NCBI GenBank assembly: GCA_031432545.1
Contig: JAVKGX010000002.1
Location: forward strand, 139,457-203,456
DNA length: 64,000 nucleotides
Source of the DNA: Armatimonadota bacterium
GTDB taxonomy: Bacteria > Sysuimicrobiota > Sysuimicrobiia > Sysuimicrobiales > Sysuimicrobiaceae
Direction: 5' to 3'
Positions 40,585 to 53,904 of this stretch are shown here, piece after piece; position 1 is the first letter of the stretch, and each line of letters starts with the position of its first letter. Both the position numbers and the translations under genes were made by a program. The notes beneath the pieces are model-generated. The model was given only the letters and a program-made list of their open reading frames with translations, had not been told where the DNA came from and did not search any database.

Positions 40585-42567
<1,983 letters not shown>

Positions 42568-42640: not shown

Positions 42641-44593
<1,953 letters not shown>

Positions 44594-44672: not shown

Positions 44673-46493
44673 CTACGTCGCGCTCGACGAACCGCGCGCC
44701 TCCTCCCCGCCGTCGGACCCACCCGCCACCGCCGGCATGTGCGCCAGATCGGGTAGGCGCATGCGGTCGACGAACTGCATCACCGCCCGGCCCTCCGGCT
44801 GGGTGATCAGGGAGACGATGACCGACACGACCAGGTTGACCGCGAACGCAATGCAGCCCCAGGCGAGAGTGCCGATGGGCTGACCGAACAGAGACCACGG
44901 AGGGGCACCGAAGACGCCCACTGCCAGCACGTAGGGGAGCGCTGTGGCCATGCCCGCGACCATGCCCCAGATGATCCCGTAGCGGTTGAGCCGTTTCCAG
45001 AATGTTCCCAGAACCACTGCGGGCGTGAAGCTGGCGGCGGCGAACACGAACGCCCAGCCGACCAGCAGGGCGACGTAGAAGGCAAACCGCGGATCGTTGA
45101 TCGCCAGGAACGCGAGGAAGCTTGCCAGGACCGACAGGACCATGACGAGAATCCGGGTCAGGCGGATTTCCTGCTGCTCGCTGACGTTGGGGTTGATGAA
45201 CCGGTGGTAGATGTCGCGCGTCACGCCGGTCGTCATGACCATCAGCAGGCCGTCGGCGGTGCTCAGGGCCGCCGCCAGGCCGCCGACCGCCACGAACGGA
45301 GCGATCCACCAGGCCAGATCCCACATGTCGGGCATGCCGATCACGACGATGTCGCCGTGGAAGCTGAGCTCGACAGGCTGTAGGATCCCGTCGGCGTTGG
45401 CGTCCTCGATCCGGATGAGCCCCGTCGGAAGGAACTTCGCCACCCACGGCACCGCCTGAACCTCCGCGATCGGACGACCCCACAGGCCACTGAAGGCGTG
45501 GCGGGCCATCGCCGCGTACATCGGCGCGGTGCAGTACAGGAGGCCGATAAAGAACAGCGCCCAGCCGACGCTGAGGCGCGCCGCCGACGCGGTCGGCGTC
45601 GTGTACGAGCGCATGAGGATGTGCGGCAACCCGATGGTGCCCAGCATCAGCAGCAGAGCGGAGAGGATCCAGTTGACCTGACCCGAAGCGCCCCCCAGCG
45701 GCTTAGCGAACGGCGTGGTCCAGGGGGTCTGTCCGAACTGAGCTTCGCGACTCTGCAGCGACTGGATGAGATCCCCGTAACCGAACCAGGGCAGCGGCTT
45801 GAACAGGCCGAGCATGCTGGCGACGATGAACACCGCCCCGAGGTAGGCGATGATCAACACGATGTACTGCGCGAATTGCGTCCACGTGATGCTCTTCCAG
45901 CCGCCGCTGGCGGCGTAGATGCCCATGCCGAACAGGGCTCCGAACACGCCGATCTGCGCGGGGATACCCAAAAAGCGCGAGAAGACCACGCCGGCGCCCA
46001 CCAGCTGCGCGGTGAGGTAGGTGAGCGACGTGATGAACAGCATGATCACCGCGATAACCCGCGCCGGTCCGTAGCCGCCGGCGCGGGTCTCCACCAGGTC
46101 GGGCACCGTCCAGGTGTTGGACTTGCGGACGTAGGGTGCGATGAAGAAGGCGTGGATCGTGTAGCCGAGCGTCCAGCCGATGATGTAGGGCAGACCGTCA
46201 TATCCCAGCAGCGCGATCGCACCGGCCATCGATAGGAAGCTCGCCGCGCTCATCCAGTCCGCGGCGGTGGCGGCCCCGTTGACGACGGGCGGGATCCGCC
46301 GTTCGGCGACGTACATCGCGTGTGCGGTCGTGCCGCGGGCGACGTAGGCGATCGAGATGTACATGAAAATCGATCCGATCACCATCCAGCCGGCGGCGAT
46401 CCTGGGGTTGAACGCCCCGAGGACGACTGTGATCGCAATGTAGGCGGCGATGCTCGGGATCAGGACGCGATAGACCTCGGGATGGATCCGCAT
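44673..46493 (-). CDS. Sodium:solute symporter, acetate/carboxylate type (VC_2705-like)
   Basis: A 606-residue polytopic transporter of the SSS family with about 13 membrane helices. Landmarks are 'VPDLVETRAGGYGPARVIAV', 'QLVGAGVVFSRFLGIPAQIG', 'GIYAASGGWKSITWTQFAQY', 'GTIGLPHILMRSYTTPTAS', 'GGLAAALSTADGLLMVMTTG' and 'ATALPYVLAVGVF'. Relatives paired with a DUF4212 subunit are thought to take up acetate or similar acids with sodium. ATG 46493 has GAGGAGGAG upstream. Directly upstream is the DUF4212 gene, downstream are two acyl-CoA synthetases, fitting import followed by activation. Confidence 0.92.
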   Translation of the reverse strand: MRIHPEVYRVLIPSIAAYIAITVVLGAFNPRIAAGWMVIGSIFMYISIAYVARGTTAHAMYVAERRIPPVVNGAATAADWMSAASFLSMAGAIALLGYDGLPYIIGWTLGYTIHAFFIAPYVRKSNTWTVPDLVETRAGGYGPARVIAVIMLFITSLTYLTAQLVGAGVVFSRFLGIPAQIGVFGALFGMGIYAASGGWKSITWTQFAQYIVLIIAYLGAVFIVASMLGLFKPLPWFGYGDLIQSLQSREAQFGQTPWTTPFAKPLGGASGQVNWILSALLLMLGTIGLPHILMRSYTTPTASAARLSVGWALFFIGLLYCTAPMYAAMARHAFSGLWGRPIAEVQAVPWVAKFLPTGLIRIEDANADGILQPVELSFHGDIVVIGMPDMWDLAWWIAPFVAVGGLAAALSTADGLLMVMTTGVTRDIYHRFINPNVSEQQEIRLTRILVMVLSVLASFLAFLAINDPRFAFYVALLVGWAFVFAAASFTPAVVLGTFWKRLNRYGIIWGMVAGMATALPYVLAVGVFGAPPWSLFGQPIGTLAWGCIAFAVNLVVSVIVSLITQPEGRAVMQFVDRMRLPDLAHMPAVAGGSDGGEEARGSSSAT

Positions 46494-46506
46494 GCCGGTC
46501 TCCTCC

Positions 46507-46881
46507 TCACGGCTCGTGGCTCGCGCCGCTGGGCGTCCCGGCCGCACCGAGTTCGAGCCGGACGTCGTCGGGCAGCCGTTCCCACTCTTCCAGGGCCCGC
46601 TCGCGCAGGCCGCGTTCGACCCGGCTCATCGCCACGTGGTAGACGAAAATCATCGCGACACCGACCCAGATGCTCATGAACGCGGCCAGGTACCAGTGCA
46701 GCGGCATGTTGCCGAAGATCAAGACGTTCCGCCAGGCGTGCGGCGCCGGGATGTGCCACCAGACGGCGATCACGCTCCACAACAGGAAGAACCAGAAGGT
46801 GATCCGGACCAGGCGTTGCCAGTACCAGCTCTTGAGGTCGTCGGGCAGATGCTCTTCGGGATGTTCGACGGTCTTCGCCAT
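46507..46881 (-). CDS. DUF4212 small membrane subunit of sodium:solute symporter
   Basis: A 124-residue membrane protein with two helices (about 28-46 and 62-84): 'ITFWFFLLWSVIAVWWHIPA' and 'WYLAAFMSIWVGVAMIFVYH', flanked by charged ends. This is the layout of DUF4212 proteins (sodium/substrate symporter small subunit), which are nearly always next to a VC_2705-type symporter as here, 13 bases away. ATG 46881 has a GGGGGG stretch upstream; GTG 46887 is an alternative. Confidence 0.88.
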   Translation of the reverse strand: MAKTVEHPEEHLPDDLKSWYWQRLVRITFWFFLLWSVIAVWWHIPAPHAWRNVLIFGNMPLHWYLAAFMSIWVGVAMIFVYHVAMSRVERGLRERALEEWERLPDDVRLELGAAGTPSGASHEP

Positions 46882-46955
46882 GCGCACCCCCCTGTCGTCG
46901 CCCGCCTCGTCGCCCGCCGGCGCGGGCTTCGGGTTTGCGAACAGCCCCCACCCCT

Positions 46956-46984: not shown

Positions 46985-47079
46985 CGATTGCGGCCTCAGC
47001 GCGGCGGTTTGCCGGGCGAACCGGCTCGGAGAGGGGGTGAGCCGTCGCACCCCCGACGTCGACCGGGTGTTTCGTGCGG

Positions 47080-47121
47080 GTGAACGGTGCGGTGAACGGT
47101 GGTCTCGCGACGGTGAACGGG
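47080..47121 (-). promoter_or_regulatory. Direct repeats resembling LytTR-type response-regulator binding sites
   Basis: Read on the minus strand, ACCGTTCAC occurs at 47088-47080 and 47100-47092, and CCCGTTCAC at 47121-47113. The last two are 21 bases apart from start to start, the spacing used by LytTR-domain regulators, and the 9-mer fits the general LytTR half-site pattern (core GTT). It also resembles the E. coli BtsR half-site (ACC-purine-CT). The cognate candidate, a LytTR response regulator, is encoded at 50912 in the operon that starts just downstream. Binding is inferred. Confidence 0.55.
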
Positions 47122-47237: not shown

Positions 47238-48479
47238 ATGCTCCGGGTCGCGGCGGCCAGCGCGGCGTTGCTGACGGTCCTCGAGACGATCGTCCTCTAC
47301 TCCATGGTCCGCGCGGATCCGCTTTCCCTCGCGGTGGCGGTGGGACTGTTCAATGCGGTACTCGCCGTGGTGGTGGGACGTCTGAGCATGGCCCACCTCG
47401 GCTACCACGGCAAGCGGAGCGCCGCCGCGCTGGGCGGGATCTCGGACCCGTTGACGGTGCTGCGAGAGGGGCTGAACCGGGAGACTGCGCGAGAGACCGT
47501 CCGGATGCTCGCGCAGCTGGACAACGTCCGCGGCGTCGTCGTCGCCGAGCGCCAGGAGGTGCTGGCCTCCGAGGGGCCCGCCTTCGAAGACCCGCAGGTC
47601 GTGGAGGTGGTGCGGCAGGTCCTGCGGGATGTCAGAAGCCGCGGCGGCGCGGTGCGCCGGGCGCTGTCGGGGGTGGCCGTGGTTGCGGCGCCGCTGGTCT
47701 ACCGCCGAGACGTCCTGGGAGCGCTCGGGTTCGTGGTCTCGGGGAACGGCGAGTCCGTGAACGAAGTCGCGCGGGCGGCCGAGGTGTTCGCGCGGCTGCT
47801 GGCGATGCAGTTGGCGCTGGCGCAGATGGACCAGCAGGCCCGTCTGGCCGCCGAGGCGGAGTTGCGGGCGCTGCAGGCTCAGATCAACCCGCACTTCTTC
47901 TTCAACACGCTCAACACCGTCGTCAGCTACATGCGCGACGACCCGGAGATGGCCCGCAGGCTGTTGCTGCGCCTGGCGGACCTCTTTCGGATGAACATGC
48001 AGCTGGGAGGGCAGATCATCCCGTTCGCAGACGAATACCAGTACATCCGCGACTACCTCTTCATCGAGCAGGCGCGCTTCCGGGACCGGCTCCGGGTGAC
48101 CTACGACATCGATCCCCAGGTGCTCAAGGTGGGCGTGCCGGCGCTGTCGGTTCAGCCTTTGGTGGAGAACGCGGTGCGGCACGGCATCGCGCCCAAGAAC
48201 GGGCCCGGCACGCTGGAGATCCGTGCTCGCTTGGACCTCCTGCTGCTGCGTGTGCACATCACCGTGCGGGACGACGGTGTCGGGATGCCGCCGGAGCGGG
48301 TGGAGGAGATCCTGCACGGTCACCCCGGCGAAGCGATGCCGCGGAGCGTCCGGGGTGGGGTCGCGCTGGCCAACGTGCGGGAGCGCCTGCGGAGGCTGTA
48401 CGGTGATGCGTGCAGCCTCGAGATCGAGAGCACGCCCGGCAGGGGTACTACGGTGCACCTCAGGCTACCCATGCGGTGA
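47238..48479 (+). CDS. LytS-type sensor histidine kinase
   Basis: A 413-residue membrane sensor kinase. Two N-terminal helices (about 5-23 and 29-48), then a GAF-like region (about 65-205, 'VRGVVVAERQEVLASEGPAF'), and a LytS/YehU-type kinase: phosphate-accepting His219 in 'QAQINPHFFFNTLNTVVSY', 'QIIPFADEYQYIRDYLFIEQ', N-box 'QPLVENAVRHGIAPK' and G-box 'VRDDGVGMPPERV'. The region before His219 carries only two helices, fewer than the 5TM-LYT sensors. ATG 47238 follows GGAGG. It is first in an operon with a cNMP/CBS protein, an exonuclease and the LytTR regulator that is its likely partner. Confidence 0.9.
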   Translation: MLRVAAASAALLTVLETIVLYSMVRADPLSLAVAVGLFNAVLAVVVGRLSMAHLGYHGKRSAAALGGISDPLTVLREGLNRETARETVRMLAQLDNVRGVVVAERQEVLASEGPAFEDPQVVEVVRQVLRDVRSRGGAVRRALSGVAVVAAPLVYRRDVLGALGFVVSGNGESVNEVARAAEVFARLLAMQLALAQMDQQARLAAEAELRALQAQINPHFFFNTLNTVVSYMRDDPEMARRLLLRLADLFRMNMQLGGQIIPFADEYQYIRDYLFIEQARFRDRLRVTYDIDPQVLKVGVPALSVQPLVENAVRHGIAPKNGPGTLEIRARLDLLLLRVHITVRDDGVGMPPERVEEILHGHPGEAMPRSVRGGVALANVRERLRRLYGDACSLEIESTPGRGTTVHLRLPMR

Positions 48480-48495
48480 GCGCTCGGTGGCCGCC

Positions 48496-50253
48496 ATGGA
48501 TCCCATGGAGTTCGTCCGCCGCACCGCACCGTTCGGCAGGCTATCCCGTGCTGCGGTCGCGCAACTGGAAGGCCAGCTCGAGATCCTGTTCTTCCCAAAG
48601 GGAAGGGTGGTCGTGAACTGGGACGCGCAGACCCCGCACGTCTACCTGATCCGAAGGGGTGCGGTGAAGGTCGCGACCCCCGCCGGAGAGAGCGTGCACC
48701 TGGAGGAAGGCGAGACGTTCGGCAGAGGGGAGCGTCCTTTCGGCGGGCTGCCGGCGGAGGTCACGGCCGAGGAAGACCTGCTCGTGTACCGATGGCCAGC
48801 AGAGCTCGTCGCCCGGGTGCGGGCGACCGCGGAAAGTGTGCGCGACGAACCGCCCGCTGGCCTGTTCGTGCCCGTGGGCAGCCTCGTGCGCAGGCGCCTG
48901 GTGTGGGTGACACCTGGGGTGACGGTCGGCGAGGCGGCGCGCCGGATGGCCGAAGAGGGCGTCAGCTCACTGGTGGTGGCGCGGGCCCAGCCAGGCACCG
49001 ACAGCGTGGCGCTGGGCGAGGTCGCAGGCGTCGTGACGGATCGCGACCTGCGCTCGAAGGTGTTGGCCCGCGGGCTGGGCTCCGACACCCCCGTGGATGC
49101 GATCATGACGAGTCCGGCGCACACCATCCCGGCCGATGCGCCGGTCTTCGCGGTGCTCATGGAGATGCTCGAGAGGCGCATCCACCATCTGCCCGTCCTT
49201 CGCGACGGGCAGGTCGTGGGCATGGTCACCGATACCGACCTCATGCAGCTGCAGGCTCGCAGCCCGCTGTTCGTGTTGAAGCGGCTGGAGGAAGGCAGCC
49301 TGGACCGGTATGCGGACGAGGTCGCCTCCGTGGCCTCCTCGCTGATGGAGGCCGGCGTGGGGATCGCTGCTCTGTGCCAGACCGTCTCGCGCCTCCACGA
49401 CGCCCTGTGTCGTCGCGTGCTGCGCGAGGCGGAGGCCGAACTGGGGGCGCCCCCGGTTCCCTACGCGTGGATGGTGTATGGATCGGAGGGCAGGCAGGAG
49501 CAGATCCTGCCCACCGATCAGGACAATGCGTTGGTGTACGGTGGGCAGGGCGAGGAGCCGTACTTCGTGCGCTTCGCCCAGGCCGTGTCGCGTCGTCTGG
49601 CGACGGCTGGGTTTCCTCCGTGTCCCGGCGGCTACATGGCGATCAACTGGCACGGCCCGTTGGCGGAGTGGGTGCAGCGCTTCACGATGTGGATGCGGCG
49701 ACCGGAAGGCGAGAACCTCCTGAACGCCCATGTGTTCTTCGACTTCCGCAGCGCCGGCGGCGAGCTCGATCTGGAACCTCTGGAGCGGACGGTCGCCGGC
49801 GCCCGCAACAACCGCCTGTTCGTGGCCCACCTCGCCCGCGGTTGCGTCCAGTTCCGGCCACCGCTGGGCCCGTTCCGTCGGCTACAGACGCACGAGGGCA
49901 GACTGGATCTGAAGACCGGTGCGATCGCGCCGGTGGTGTGCATCGGCCGGCTGTTGGCGCTGCAAGGCGCAACGCGGGAGCGCAACACCATTCGCAGACT
50001 GCGCTCGGCGTCCGAGAGCGGCCTGCTCAGCCGCGAGGACGCCGAGGGGCTCGTCGATGCGTTCGAACTGGCCATGCGGCTTCGCCTGCGTGCCCAGCTG
50101 GCCGCGTGGAAGCGAGGGGACAAACCGGGCAATGAGATCGCACTGGACGCGCTGTCGCCGGGAGAGCGGCGCAACCTCCGCCACGCGCTCTGGTTCGTCC
50201 GCCAGGCGCAGGAGGGGATCCGGCACCGATTCCACATGGGTCTGTGGGCGTGA
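48496..50253 (+). CDS. cNMP-binding / CBS-pair / DUF294 nucleotidyltransferase-like protein
   Basis: A 585-residue cytoplasmic signalling protein of four parts: a cyclic-nucleotide-binding-type beta roll (about 1-110, 'GRVVVNWDAQTPHVYLIRRG'), a CBS pair (about 118-260, 'VSSLVVARAQ', 'DAIMTSPAHTIPADAPVF', 'RRIHHLPVLRDGQVVGMVTD'), a DUF294 nucleotidyltransferase domain with 'YGSEGRQEQILPTDQDNAL' (Gly329-Ser330, Asp341, Asp343 as catalytic pattern) and a C-terminal helical DUF294_C domain. Related to the uridylyltransferase part of GlnD. It is often found with acetate-type symporters, but its target is not known. ATG 48496 is likely; GTG 48487 possible. Confidence 0.88.
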   Translation: MDPMEFVRRTAPFGRLSRAAVAQLEGQLEILFFPKGRVVVNWDAQTPHVYLIRRGAVKVATPAGESVHLEEGETFGRGERPFGGLPAEVTAEEDLLVYRWPAELVARVRATAESVRDEPPAGLFVPVGSLVRRRLVWVTPGVTVGEAARRMAEEGVSSLVVARAQPGTDSVALGEVAGVVTDRDLRSKVLARGLGSDTPVDAIMTSPAHTIPADAPVFAVLMEMLERRIHHLPVLRDGQVVGMVTDTDLMQLQARSPLFVLKRLEEGSLDRYADEVASVASSLMEAGVGIAALCQTVSRLHDALCRRVLREAEAELGAPPVPYAWMVYGSEGRQEQILPTDQDNALVYGGQGEEPYFVRFAQAVSRRLATAGFPPCPGGYMAINWHGPLAEWVQRFTMWMRRPEGENLLNAHVFFDFRSAGGELDLEPLERTVAGARNNRLFVAHLARGCVQFRPPLGPFRRLQTHEGRLDLKTGAIAPVVCIGRLLALQGATRERNTIRRLRSASESGLLSREDAEGLVDAFELAMRLRLRAQLAAWKRGDKPGNEIALDALSPGERRNLRHALWFVRQAQEGIRHRFHMGLWA

Positions 50254-50915
50254 CGGCTCGCGCGGGCCGTCCGGAGGCAGAGACCTTGACAAGCGTGGGG
50301 TTCCGTCGGGCAGAGGGGGTTCGCAGTCCCTGGCACGAAGCGGTCTACTGGTGCCTGGACCTGGAGACGTCGGATCTGGACGCTGCACGCGCGGAGGTCC
50401 TCTCCGTGGGTGTGGTGCCGGTGCACGGAGGCGTCGTCTGTTGCGCCGACCTGTACCGCAGCTTCGTCCGGCTGGAGCGAGAGACGGCGCGGTGGCGCGG
50501 TTCGCGTGCGCACCACATCGTACCCGCCGACCTGACCGACGCACCCGCGTGGCCGGAGGTGGTGCGCGAGGTGGATCGCCGGCTGCGCGGCGGCGTGCTC
50601 GTGGTGCACGGGGCCAGCGTGGACGTCCCGTTCCTCCGGCGCGGCTACGAACGTGCCGGGATCTCCTGGCCCCCCGGGCCGGTGGTCGACACCGTGCGCC
50701 TGTTGCAGCGGCTCGACGGCAGGCTACGCTGGCTGTTTGGCCGAAGTGGCACGGTGCCTGTGGAGCTCGGGCGGGCGCGCGCGCGGGTGGGGCTTCCCCG
50801 GTATCCGCGCCACGACGCCGCCACCGACGCGGTGGCGACGGCGGAGCTGTTTTTGGTGTTGGTGAACAGGCTGGGCGTCAGGTCGGTGGGTGACGTCGTG
50901 AGGTGGGGGGCATGA
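50250..50915 (+). CDS. DEDDh 3'-5' exonuclease-like protein
   Basis: A 221-residue protein of the DnaQ/RNase T superfamily. Exo I is 'YWCLDLETSDLD' with Asp37 and Glu39, Exo II lies around 'VVHGASVDVPFLRRGYERAG', and Exo III is 'YPRHDAATDAVATAELF' with the His and Asp of the DEDDh type. It could degrade short oligonucleotides or single-strand ends. The GTG at 50250 overlaps the previous stop (GTGA), and its own stop overlaps the response-regulator start (ATGA), so it is tightly embedded in the signalling operon rather than in a repair context. Confidence 0.87.
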   Translation: MTARAGRPEAETLTSVGFRRAEGVRSPWHEAVYWCLDLETSDLDAARAEVLSVGVVPVHGGVVCCADLYRSFVRLERETARWRGSRAHHIVPADLTDAPAWPEVVREVDRRLRGGVLVVHGASVDVPFLRRGYERAGISWPPGPVVDTVRLLQRLDGRLRWLFGRSGTVPVELGRARARVGLPRYPRHDAATDAVATAELFLVLVNRLGVRSVGDVVRWGA

Positions 50916-51646
50916 TGCGCGCACTGATCGTCGACGACGAGTACCCGGCGCGGAGAGAACTCCGGGCGCAACTGTCCCACTTCCCCAACGTGGAGATCGT
51001 CGGCGAGGCGGCCACCGCGGACGAGGCACGCAAGCTGATCGCGGCGGTACCCTACGACGTGGTGTTCTTGGACATCGAGATGCCCGGGCGCAGCGGGCTG
51101 GATCTGGCGCGCGAACTGGCGGCCAGCGGTGGTCCGCACGTGGTGTTTACGACGGCGTATTCACAGTACGCCGTCGACGCGTTCGACGTCGGCGCCGCCG
51201 GCTACCTCCTCAAGCCGTTCGACGAGGAACGCATCGCACACGTGCTCGAGCGCCTGGGGGCCCATCCGCCTCCGAAGGGCGCCACCGAGCGGGCCGCCCC
51301 TTCACCGGCGCGCATCCCCGCGCACCGCCACGACGTCACCGTGCTCGTGCCGCCCGAGGAGATCGCCTTCGCCTACGCGGAGGCCGAGCAAGTCTACCTG
51401 AAGCTGCACCGGGAGCGGCTGGGCTGTCGGTTCACGCTGAGAGAACTCGAGGCGAGACTGCGGCCGCACGGATTCTTGCGCGTGCACCGCAGGTTCCTCG
51501 TGAACCTCGCCAAGGTACGCGAGGTGGTACCGTACTTCAAAGGCAACATCGGGCTGGTGGTCGACGACGCCGAACGGACGGAGATCCCGGTGAGTCGGGC
51601 TCTAGCCCCCGTGGTACGCCGCTGCCTCGGACTGCGCGAACCCTGA
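50912..51646 (+). CDS. LytTR-family response regulator
   Basis: A 244-residue two-domain regulator. The receiver domain (about 1-120) has the acidic pair in 'ALIVDDEYPARREL', phosphate-accepting Asp54 in 'VVFLDIEMPGRSGLDLAREL', 'VFTTAYSQYAVDAF' and the lysine in 'GYLLKPFDEERI'. After a Pro/Arg-rich linker comes a LytTR DNA-binding domain (about 135-244): 'VLVPPEEIAFAYAEAEQVYL', 'FTLRELEARLRPHGFLRVHRRFLVNLAKV' and 'EIPVSRALAPVV'. It is presumably phosphorylated by the LytS-type kinase in the same operon and may bind the repeats at 47080-47121. Confidence 0.93.
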   Translation: MMRALIVDDEYPARRELRAQLSHFPNVEIVGEAATADEARKLIAAVPYDVVFLDIEMPGRSGLDLARELAASGGPHVVFTTAYSQYAVDAFDVGAAGYLLKPFDEERIAHVLERLGAHPPPKGATERAAPSPARIPAHRHDVTVLVPPEEIAFAYAEAEQVYLKLHRERLGCRFTLRELEARLRPHGFLRVHRRFLVNLAKVREVVPYFKGNIGLVVDDAERTEIPVSRALAPVVRRCLGLREP

Positions 51647-51665: not shown

Positions 51666-53492
51666 TCAGGTCGGAGGGACCGCCCCCGTTCCCAGCTGCT
51701 CGAGCAGCCGTTCCTGACGCTCGCGGGCCGTGCCGTGGAGCCGCAGCCAGATCTCGCCCACGTGCTGCGGCACGTTGCGGCGGTCCGCCAGCGAGACTGC
51801 CACCATGACGAGCAGGGCGACAGGCGCCGTGTACAGCGTCGGCAGGGAGAATCCCGTGAGCCCCCCGAGAAAAGGCGGCGTCGGTCCGTCCAGGATGCGC
51901 AGGAGGTCGGCGCCTAGCAGGAGCAGACATCCGCCGCCGCCGGTGATCATCCCCGCGATGGCTCCGCGCGGTGTGACCCCCTTCCACCAGATGCTGGCCA
52001 CCAGCACCGGCACGAGGCCGCTGGCCGAGACCGCGAACGCCCAGCTGACCATCAGGGCGATCACCGCCGGAAACGCACGGAATAGGGCGACACGGGGGAT
52101 CGCGAGGCCGACGGCCAAAGCCACCAGGGCCATCGCCACCAGCGCGATCTTGGCGACGCGCACTCGGAGGCGTTCTGGGGCGTCGGGTCGCAGGAACTGC
52201 TCGAAGACGTCGTGGCCCCAGGACGCCGCCGACGCCAGCAGCAACCCGCCGATGGTGGACAGCATCGCCGCGAAGGCACCCGCAGCCACGTACCCCAGCA
52301 GCATGCTGCCTCCCAGACTCTGCGCGAGGAAGGGCAGCACCTGATCGGGGTGCATCAGCAGCCCGTCCACGACCTGGACCGCCAACCCCACGCCCACGTT
52401 GTCGTCGGACAGGGCGGGGGTGAGCGTGCGTCCGGCCACGCCGGCCGCGCTCGCCAGCCAGTAGAACGCGCTGGTGAACAGCACGACGTACACCGTGGTG
52501 CGGCGAGCCATCGGGCCCGTGGGGTTCGTGTAAAAGCGCATCACGACGTGCGGCAACCCCGCGGTCCCGAGGACCAGCGTCAGCAGCAGCGACGCATGGT
52601 CCAGCGGCGTGTACAGGTGTCCCGGACGGTTGAATACCGCCGGTTCGGCCCGTAGGCGGCTGCGCTGTGGCATCAACACCACGACCTCGGCATCGGGATC
52701 CGCCAGCCGGGGTGCGATGTGCTGCTGCCAGTACGCCTCGCGCATCACCGAGCGGGCGACCTCGACCGGAAGCCGGCCGTCGGGATCCGGGCGCAGCAGG
52801 TCGGCCACGCGCCAGCGCTCCGGATTGACCAGCGGTCCGGCGCTGAGATCCCGCAGCGCCCGAGTGTAGCTGAAACCGGCGGCGGCTGCGAATGCGAGCA
52901 CGAGCGCGACGGCCGACAGCATGATCCAGAACTGCAGCGCCTGGTTCCAGGTCATCCCCCGCATGCCGCCGAGGATGCTGAAGGCGATCATCGCCACGGC
53001 GGTGACCGTCACGCCGGTGGCGTAGGGGCTGAGGCCCAGGACCCCGCCTCCGACCAGCAGTTCCCACACCGTCCCGGCACCGACCATCTGCGGAGCCAGG
53101 TAGAACAGGACGATGATCTGCACGAGCGCGACGGCGACCAGCCGGGCAGCGGCCGAATCGAACCGAGCTGCAAAGTAATCCGGCAGGGTGTACTCCCCGA
53201 AGCGCCGCAGCGGACTGGCGGTGAACAGCAGCAGAGGCACGAAGCCGCCGGCGAACCCCACCCCGAACCAGACGCCGTCCAGCCCGGATGCGTACACGGC
53301 CCCCGCTACACCCAAGAACGACGCGGCGCTGAAGTAGTCGCCGCACACCGCCGAGGCATTCAGCGAGGCATTCACCGTGCGGCTGGCCAGGTAGAACTCG
53401 AGCCGTGTGCTGGCCTGCCGGCGCGCATACCACGACAGCACCAGCGCGGCCGCCATCACGCCCAGCGTGGTCGCCAGAGCGGCCGTCTGCAC
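51666..53492 (-). CDS. Second sodium:solute symporter (ActP-like)
   Basis: A 608-residue SSS-family transporter with about 13 helices: 'EFYLASRTVNASLNASAVCG' (ActP-type opening), 'GDYFSAASFLGVAGAVYASG', 'YTLPDYFAARFDSAAARLV', 'FYLAPQMVGAGTVWELLVG', 'FSILGGMRGMTWNQALQFWI', 'GTAGLPHVVMRFYTNPTGP' and 'GAFAAMLSTIGGLLLASAAS'. A hydrophilic insert of about 70 residues lies after helix 5. Closest in style to cation/acetate symporters. GTG start; the small membrane partner gene ends one base upstream. It converges with the LytTR regulator gene. Confidence 0.9.
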   Translation of the reverse strand: MQTAALATTLGVMAAALVLSWYARRQASTRLEFYLASRTVNASLNASAVCGDYFSAASFLGVAGAVYASGLDGVWFGVGFAGGFVPLLLFTASPLRRFGEYTLPDYFAARFDSAAARLVAVALVQIIVLFYLAPQMVGAGTVWELLVGGGVLGLSPYATGVTVTAVAMIAFSILGGMRGMTWNQALQFWIMLSAVALVLAFAAAAGFSYTRALRDLSAGPLVNPERWRVADLLRPDPDGRLPVEVARSVMREAYWQQHIAPRLADPDAEVVVLMPQRSRLRAEPAVFNRPGHLYTPLDHASLLLTLVLGTAGLPHVVMRFYTNPTGPMARRTTVYVVLFTSAFYWLASAAGVAGRTLTPALSDDNVGVGLAVQVVDGLLMHPDQVLPFLAQSLGGSMLLGYVAAGAFAAMLSTIGGLLLASAASWGHDVFEQFLRPDAPERLRVRVAKIALVAMALVALAVGLAIPRVALFRAFPAVIALMVSWAFAVSASGLVPVLVASIWWKGVTPRGAIAGMITGGGGCLLLLGADLLRILDGPTPPFLGGLTGFSLPTLYTAPVALLVMVAVSLADRRNVPQHVGEIWLRLHGTARERQERLLEQLGTGAVPPT

Positions 53493-53493
53493 G

Positions 53494-53904
53494 TCACCGA
53501 CCTCCGGGCGGCGCCCAGCTACCCGGGCGGAGGGAGTCGTCGCGATGGCGTTCGAGCAGGTCTTCCTCCAGGCGGTTGGCCCGCATCGTGTACGAGATCG
53601 CCAGGAGAACGCAAAACAGCGGGTAGACGATGGTGGCCGCGACGAACGCGGGCGTGAGTCCGCCCCAGATGGGCAGCGTCACCCACGGATCCCAAAGCGC
53701 CTGCAGCACCGGCAGGAGGAGCGTCCCCGCGAAGAACAAAGCCGCATGTCCGAAGGTCAGTCGGCGCTGGGCGCGGAAGACCGCCTCGACTTCCTCCGGG
53801 GTATCGAACTCGGGGTAGTTCCACAGGACGGAGTCGACTTCGTCCTGTGAGGTCAAAGCATCGCCTGCATATCCAGGCAAGATCGGCCCCAGATTCCGCC
53901 GCAC
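53494..53904 (-). CDS. Small two-helix membrane protein, DUF485-like partner of the second symporter
   Basis: A 136-residue protein with two helices (about 51-68 and 80-103): 'FGHAALFFAGTLLLPVLQAL' and 'GLTPAFVAATIVYPLFCVLL', flanked by charged regions. Size, topology and position directly before an ActP-like symporter match DUF485/YjcH-type partners, though sequence similarity is weak. A stop codon lies three codons upstream of GTG 53904, so the start is there or at a later TTG. No clear ribosome-binding site is seen. Confidence 0.65.
   Translation of the reverse strand: MRRNLGPILPGYAGDALTSQDEVDSVLWNYPEFDTPEEVEAVFRAQRRLTFGHAALFFAGTLLLPVLQALWDPWVTLPIWGGLTPAFVAATIVYPLFCVLLAISYTMRANRLEEDLLERHRDDSLRPGSWAPPGGR

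Follow-up and report, generated by a model that had tools for sequence, protein, structure and literature searches.

The closest known system to the gene cassette described here is the Pseudomonas pair PP_0354/PP_0353 (Pflu5625; PA3233/PA3232) of the MxtR/ErdR (CrbS/CrbR) acetate regulon. In P. putida, PP_0354, encoding a DUF294 protein, and PP_0353, encoding an exonuclease, form an operon with a promoter bound by ErdR (PMC8402216, PMC9927547). Deletion of either gene left growth on 20 mM acetate unaffected, and the actP-I mutant, like the PP_0353 mutant, was not impaired on this substrate; on 20 mM pyruvate, the deletions of PP_0353 and actP-I were both impaired, while the deletion of PP_0354 was not (PMC9927547). 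Nucleotidylation had already been proposed for the DUF294 homologue by the Pseudomonas authors, from its domains alone (PMC5715377). No report of nucleotidylation by, or of a substrate of, any DUF294 protein was found in the literature searched.

The BtsS/BtsR and YpdA/YpdB systems combine a LytS-type kinase core and a LytTR regulator beside monocarboxylate transport, and BtsS/BtsR is a pyruvate two-component system (PMC5552118). The protein-adenylylating enzymes GlnE and DrrA have a fold composed of a nucleotidyltransferase and a helical C-terminal domain, with a GS...DxD active site. In MNT–HEPN type VII toxin–antitoxin systems, a Pol-beta nucleotidyltransferase modifies a protein by AMPylation, and DUF294_C and HEPN share a Pfam clan (PMC3710099, PMC11586414).

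The window analyzed here is a stretch of 64,000 nucleotides from an Armatimonadota bacterium with a genome of 2.19 Mb in 21 contigs. The nearest named relatives were Armatimonadota-labelled metagenome bins and Bacterium HR32 (HRbin32), followed by Meiothermus. The following features were identified:

40585–42567, minus strand: acetate--CoA ligase AcsA (TIGR02188, 974.9 bits; cut-off 724.95)
42641–44590, minus strand: acetate--CoA ligase-like protein 1 (PRK00174, 732.8 bits, cut-off 657; TIGR02188, 709 bits, slightly below the cut-off)
44673–46547, minus strand: sodium:solute symporter 1 of the VC_2705 family (TIGR03648, 520.2 bits; cut-off 320.75)
46507–46887, minus strand: DUF4212 small subunit of symporter 1 (PF13937; TIGR03647, 28.6 bits, cut-off 26.05)
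47077–47118, no strand assigned: candidate LytTR operator in the divergent promoter region, three copies of GTGAACGG
47238–48479, plus strand: LytS-type sensor histidine kinase (two hydrophobic N-terminal segments, weak GAF, His_kinase PF06580, HATPase_c)
48487 (GTG) or 48496 (ATG)–50253, plus strand: cNMP-fold/CBS pair/DUF294 nucleotidyltransferase/DUF294_C protein (Pfam, fold, residues)
50244–50915, plus strand: DEDDh 3'-5' exonuclease of the DUF294-linked family (PF00929, E 1.5e-14; D-E-D-H-D residues; tree; genome survey)
50915–51646, plus strand, alternative start GTG at 50903: LytTR-type response regulator (PF00072, PF04397)
51666–53492, minus strand: sodium:solute symporter 2, ActP/VC_2705-like (PF00474; TIGR03648, 270.2 bits, below the family cut-off of 320.75)
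53494–53904, minus strand: DUF485-like small subunit of symporter 2 (PF04341, 26.1 bits, slightly below the cut-off of 28)

All four cassette genes were confirmed on the plus strand at 47238–51646 and are contiguous or overlapping, as an earlier sequence-only reading had described. The exonuclease ORF starts before the DUF294 stop codon and the ATG of the regulator lies at the exonuclease stop; thus, the cassette genes look translationally coupled. The symporters claimed on either side were also found; however, the two acyl-CoA synthetases of that reading resemble acetate--CoA ligases and are encoded on a single side of the cassette. Each symporter is accompanied by a small-subunit gene that had been missed; no mention of the term DUF4212 was found in the literature searched.

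As in the Pseudomonas operon, a CBS/nucleotidyltransferase protein and an RNase_T exonuclease are associated with an ActP-type symporter and with the use of acetate or pyruvate (PMC9927547, PMC8402216, PMC5715377). Whereas the Pseudomonas pair is under an unlinked SSS-STAC kinase and an unlinked response regulator, linked LytS and LytTR genes bracket both enzyme genes in the window; the linked kinase is therefore not a CrbS-type (SSS-STAC) sensor. The core, DUF294 with a DEDDh exonuclease beside acetate/pyruvate symporters, is an association already known from Pseudomonas but unexplained. The present analysis adds a measure of how strong this association is, the occurrence of both enzymes in receptor fusions, an exonuclease family dedicated to DUF294, and the version with LytS/LytTR.

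We propose that the cassette provides two-level control of short-monocarboxylate uptake (acetate, pyruvate, propionate class), a tentative reading with a probability of about 0.4, mostly for its writer half. At the first level, the LytS kinase would phosphorylate the LytTR regulator, which would bind the repeats in the divergent promoter of symporter 1 and the cassette and set transcription. At the second level, the DUF294 protein would act as a GlnE/DrrA-type nucleotidylyltransferase, gated through its CBS pair by an adenylate or another ligand, on an uptake or activation partner (the symporter, its small subunit, or acetate--CoA ligase), the nucleotide lowering the activity of this partner. 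The DEDDh exonuclease would restore uptake by removing the nucleotide, or by shortening an oligonucleotide tail made from it. The writer step, nucleotidylation of an uptake partner by DUF294, is moderately supported; the eraser step, removal of the tag by the exonuclease, is one that we infer, and the full writer-plus-eraser scheme appears doubtful. Observation covers the linkage of the genes, their intact active sites, the fold, the dedicated exonuclease family, and the receptor fusions; that a protein is the acceptor, which partner this is, the direction of the control, the eraser role, and binding by LytTR are deduced from these.

The DUF294 protein contains PF00027, two copies of PF00571, PF03445 (E 1.3e-43, 148.6 bits), and PF10335 (E 4.2e-39, 134.1 bits), which identifies it as a DUF294-CBS nucleotidyltransferase. 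Residues G329, S330, R333, D341, Q342, D343, D416, and K473 (numbered from the ATG at 48496) were invariant in 48 of the 48 DUF294 proteins compared. The GS...D.D residues, which had been called intact from the window alone, are thus conserved throughout this set, and their loss in most orthologues was not seen.

A sequence search of the PDB gave no experimental structure that covers the DUF294 domain. In the AlphaFold model (mean pLDDT 84), residues 221–577 matched the N-terminal domain of GlnE with a Z-score of 25.8 over 299 residues, the C-terminal domain of GlnE with 24.5, and the DrrA AMPylase with 24.1; the two-domain fold is shared over 292–299 residues (Z 24.1–25.8). These matches are protein adenylyltransferases, which makes transfer of a nucleotide onto a protein the leading reading, although similarity of fold does not demonstrate the reaction; the earlier suggestion that the transferase modifies a partner is consistent with the modelled fold. 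Compared with GlnE and DrrA, the window protein adds a CBS pair and a cNMP-type fold, has no second transferase domain, and has a DEDDh exonuclease as its partner. Unlike MNT–HEPN systems, the cassette has no toxin and lies in a transport context, and DUF294_C is listed among the HEPN relatives as lacking the HEPN RNase motif (PMC3710099, PMC11586414).

The cNMP-type domain of the window protein lacks the Glu and Arg of the canonical phosphate-binding cassette; cyclic-nucleotide sensing, part of the sequence-only reading, is therefore unsupported, and a canonical cAMP sensor is ruled out for this protein. Adenylates are ligands of CBS pairs.

DUF294 was encoded in only 5 of the 43 genomes examined for the phylum, all from the family of the window. 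In three of them (G002, G004, and G005), the full arrangement and gene order are kept, including all cassette genes, the two symporters, and the two ligases, and in G006 the 3' part of the cassette was located on a short contig; this recurrence exceeds chance. At loci L036–L038, the kinase is the first cassette gene. In Meiothermus, the symporter, DUF294, and the exonuclease were found together without LytS/LytTR.

Among 386 sampled genomes, 45 encoded DUF294, and neighbourhoods were analyzed for 40 loci of 34 distant genomes. An SSS symporter was located within 3 kb of DUF294 at 27 of the 40 loci, against 0.28 expected from the symporter counts of the same genomes, and a DEDDh exonuclease was encoded directly downstream (same strand, within 100 bp) at 13 of them, against 0.004 expected; both counts are lower bounds because some contigs are cut. 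LytS/LytTR adjoined DUF294 at none of the 40 loci and was seen only in the family of the window, so it is rejected as a constant partner. The four families of the sequence-only reading thus become a constant three (symporter, DUF294, and exonuclease), which co-occur far above chance, plus a local two-component system. With the transferase residues and the fold, this three-way association is what stood of that reading; the four-family set and the cyclic-nucleotide pocket did not.

Some DUF294–exonuclease pairs lie away from acetate genes, which speaks against the proposed scheme: one among glycosyl hydrolase genes on a Hymenobacter plasmid (L116:6800-9410) and one beside kdgR on a Vibrio tritonius plasmid (L113:7971-10561). 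Such pairs may serve further uptake systems. A Skermanella plasmid encodes, directly 3' of DUF294 and in the expected position of the exonuclease, a protein of 194 aa (L112:9842-10426) that is not recognizable as an exonuclease; it is possibly a functional replacement. Genome G350 has four DUF294 genes in different contexts (L095, L096, L097, and G350:C19:74270-74644) and suits work on specificity.

The 40 DUF294 proteins comprised 17 of the cNMP-fold/CBS/DUF294 architecture, 12 of the Cache-PAS-CBS-DUF294 architecture, and 11 shorter ones. In the first class, the exonuclease was directly downstream of 10 and a symporter was present at 10. In the second (L074:7145-10672, L075:9149-12172, L077:9152-12043, L083:8150-10690, L098:8156-10684, and seven other loci), an extracytoplasmic Cache domain is followed by PAS, CBS, and DUF294 as output; an SSS symporter lay within 3 kb of all 12, and the exonuclease was found at none (Fisher's test, p 0.0035, with related genomes counted separately). 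No description of these receptors was found in the literature searched, an absence that is not proof, and no plasmid record reached 80% query coverage. In a Sci Adv paper on sulfate uptake, Cache kinases and CBS proteins accompany other transporters, in a different arrangement.

The window exonuclease has the D, E, D, H, and D residues of DEDDh enzymes; the second Asp is replaced by Glu in a few relatives (L036, L037). In a tree of the DUF294-linked enzymes and 31 other RNase_T domains from the sampled genomes, one clade of moderate support (93/88) held 21 of the 24 stand-alone DUF294-linked exonucleases and all 6 receptor-fused ones, with a single outsider; the 3 stand-alone enzymes outside the clade count against the scheme. 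A profile of the stand-alone form gave 20 strong matches (>170 bits; next score 155 bits) in 19 of the 386 genomes, all of which also encode DUF294. Fifteen of these 19 genomes are not independent, which also weighs against the scheme, since 11 supplied profile sequences and 4 are close kin of those; for the remaining 4, of three lineages, the co-occurrence with DUF294 had p 0.0005. The exonuclease is a dedicated family tied to DUF294, with moderate clade support.

The P. putida phenotypes follow the pattern expected from losing the eraser, but not the writer, of an inhibitory tag, and other schemes would fit them too; the published genetics is compatible with the exonuclease as a reverser but is not specific to such a role. 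Removal of a nucleotide from a protein is not known for any DEDDh enzyme, which argues against the eraser.

Control could instead operate on RNA: the exonuclease would degrade or trim particular RNAs (mRNAs of transporters or of central carbon metabolism, or the 3' ends of tRNA or sRNA), DUF294 would tail or sense RNA, and transcript stability would be set in this way. The closest PDB folds to the exonuclease are DNA/RNA exonucleases (PolC, DnaQ, DinG), the P. putida authors suggested mRNA decay (PMC9927547), and MenT nucleotidyltransferases extend tRNA ends. We regard this explanation as unlikely: the top fold matches of DUF294 with DUF294_C are protein adenylyltransferases and not RNA-tailing enzymes, an RNA-binding domain was looked for and none was found, and the Cache receptor fusions beside symporters suggest local membrane signalling.

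Fusions were also found on the second enzyme. In some HAMP/PAS proteins with a degenerate kinase core (L097:13613-15784, L078:11583-13646, L094:13614-15503, L117:10201-12138, L118:8710-10773, and L119:7543-9657), an exonuclease forms the C-terminal output domain; several of these membrane/PAS proteins apparently share an operon with genes for a receiver, a kinase, and DUF294. No description of such receptors was found in the literature searched. In Paracoccus, DUF294, a kinase, a receiver, and then the receptor-exonuclease form one apparent operon; the same order was found at L094, where the kinase has a detectable SSS segment. Since these kinases are non-homologous to the LytS kinase of the window, the combination of kinase, receiver, DUF294, and exonuclease was assembled at least two times, which strengthens the point of the sequence-only reading that the pairing matters.

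DUF294 and the exonuclease each serve as a receptor output, a role that messenger synthases and hydrolases have as well, and a soluble messenger would also suit the binding of adenylates by CBS pairs. DUF294 would then make a small (oligo)nucleotide or a nucleotidylated metabolite, degraded by the exonuclease in an oligoribonuclease-like manner, with the symporter or the kinase as receptor. However, the closest folds act on proteins and not on small acceptors, no messenger-binding partner was found, and the exonuclease is absent near all 12 Cache-type loci, which makes a messenger improbable.

The silent DUF294 deletion in P. putida, on acetate as on pyruvate, counts against the writer/eraser scheme and also fits a dispensable gene. 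It would be explained as well if the CBS and nucleotidyltransferase domains only sensed the adenylate energy state and controlled the symporter allosterically, with no transfer and with the exonuclease as an operon passenger. The invariance of the catalytic residues in 48 of 48 proteins argues for catalysis, and the confinement of a dedicated exonuclease family to DUF294 genomes argues against a passenger; binding alone is thus quite improbable.

As for the first level of the proposed two-level control, the kinase contains His_kinase (PF06580, E 2.5e-25) and HATPase_c. The LytS-type kinase named in the sequence-only reading was thus found, but the LytS-type multi-TM (5TM) sensor had no Pfam match in the kinase, the N-terminus of which consists of two hydrophobic segments and a weak GAF. 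The closest named model for the regulator was BtsR (PRK11697), with 167.9 bits against a cut-off of 246; the regulator is therefore not a BtsR equivalog, although its nearness to a pyruvate system supports the proposed scheme (PMC5552118). The window differs from BtsS/BtsR and YpdA/YpdB in this undetected 5TM sensor, in the score of the regulator, and in its SSS transporters, those of the two systems being CstA or MFS.

In the divergent region between the genes of symporter 1 and the kinase, two of the three repeats form a perfect GGTGAAC-N14-GGTGAAC pair with a 21-bp period (47091–47118), the sole perfect match in the 2.19-Mb genome, and related, looser promoter repeats at 21–22 bp were found in three relatives. 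A scan with a LytTR consensus did not place the promoter above background, and this weakness of the repeats counts against the scheme. The repeats are therefore a candidate LytTR operator, for which the evidence is the exact 21-bp repeat, unique in the genome, and the less exact repeats of the relatives.

That LytS/LytTR is a mere neighbour regulating the symporters, the lineage's own BtsSR-like pyruvate system beside an ordinary DUF294–exonuclease pair, with the cassette a single operon only through proximity, would agree with the closeness of the regulator to BtsR and the absence of LytS at the 40 distant loci. This is more improbable still: in all family genomes with a complete region, the pair is enclosed by the kinase and regulator genes, with gene overlaps, and in Paracoccus, an alphaproteobacterium, DUF294 and the exonuclease are likewise separated by a kinase and a receiver, although these are of unrelated type.

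The writer/eraser reading may extend beyond the cassette: nutrient receptors of the Cache-PAS or the CBS/cNMP-fold kind would have DUF294 as their output enzyme and place a reversible nucleotide tag on uptake proteins, with the dedicated DEDDh exonuclease family as eraser, a generalization that we consider rather unlikely. The control of acetate and pyruvate transporter activity after synthesis is poorly understood in bacteria. Many unrelated bacteria encode, beside such transporters, a conserved enzyme with a protein-adenylyltransferase fold, which in some cases forms the output of a receptor that faces outward. If transporters are indeed reversibly tagged, nutrient control would gain a new layer and the exonuclease fold a new function, and bacterial transporters would be controlled, along a widespread and so far undescribed signalling route, through protein (oligo)nucleotidylation.
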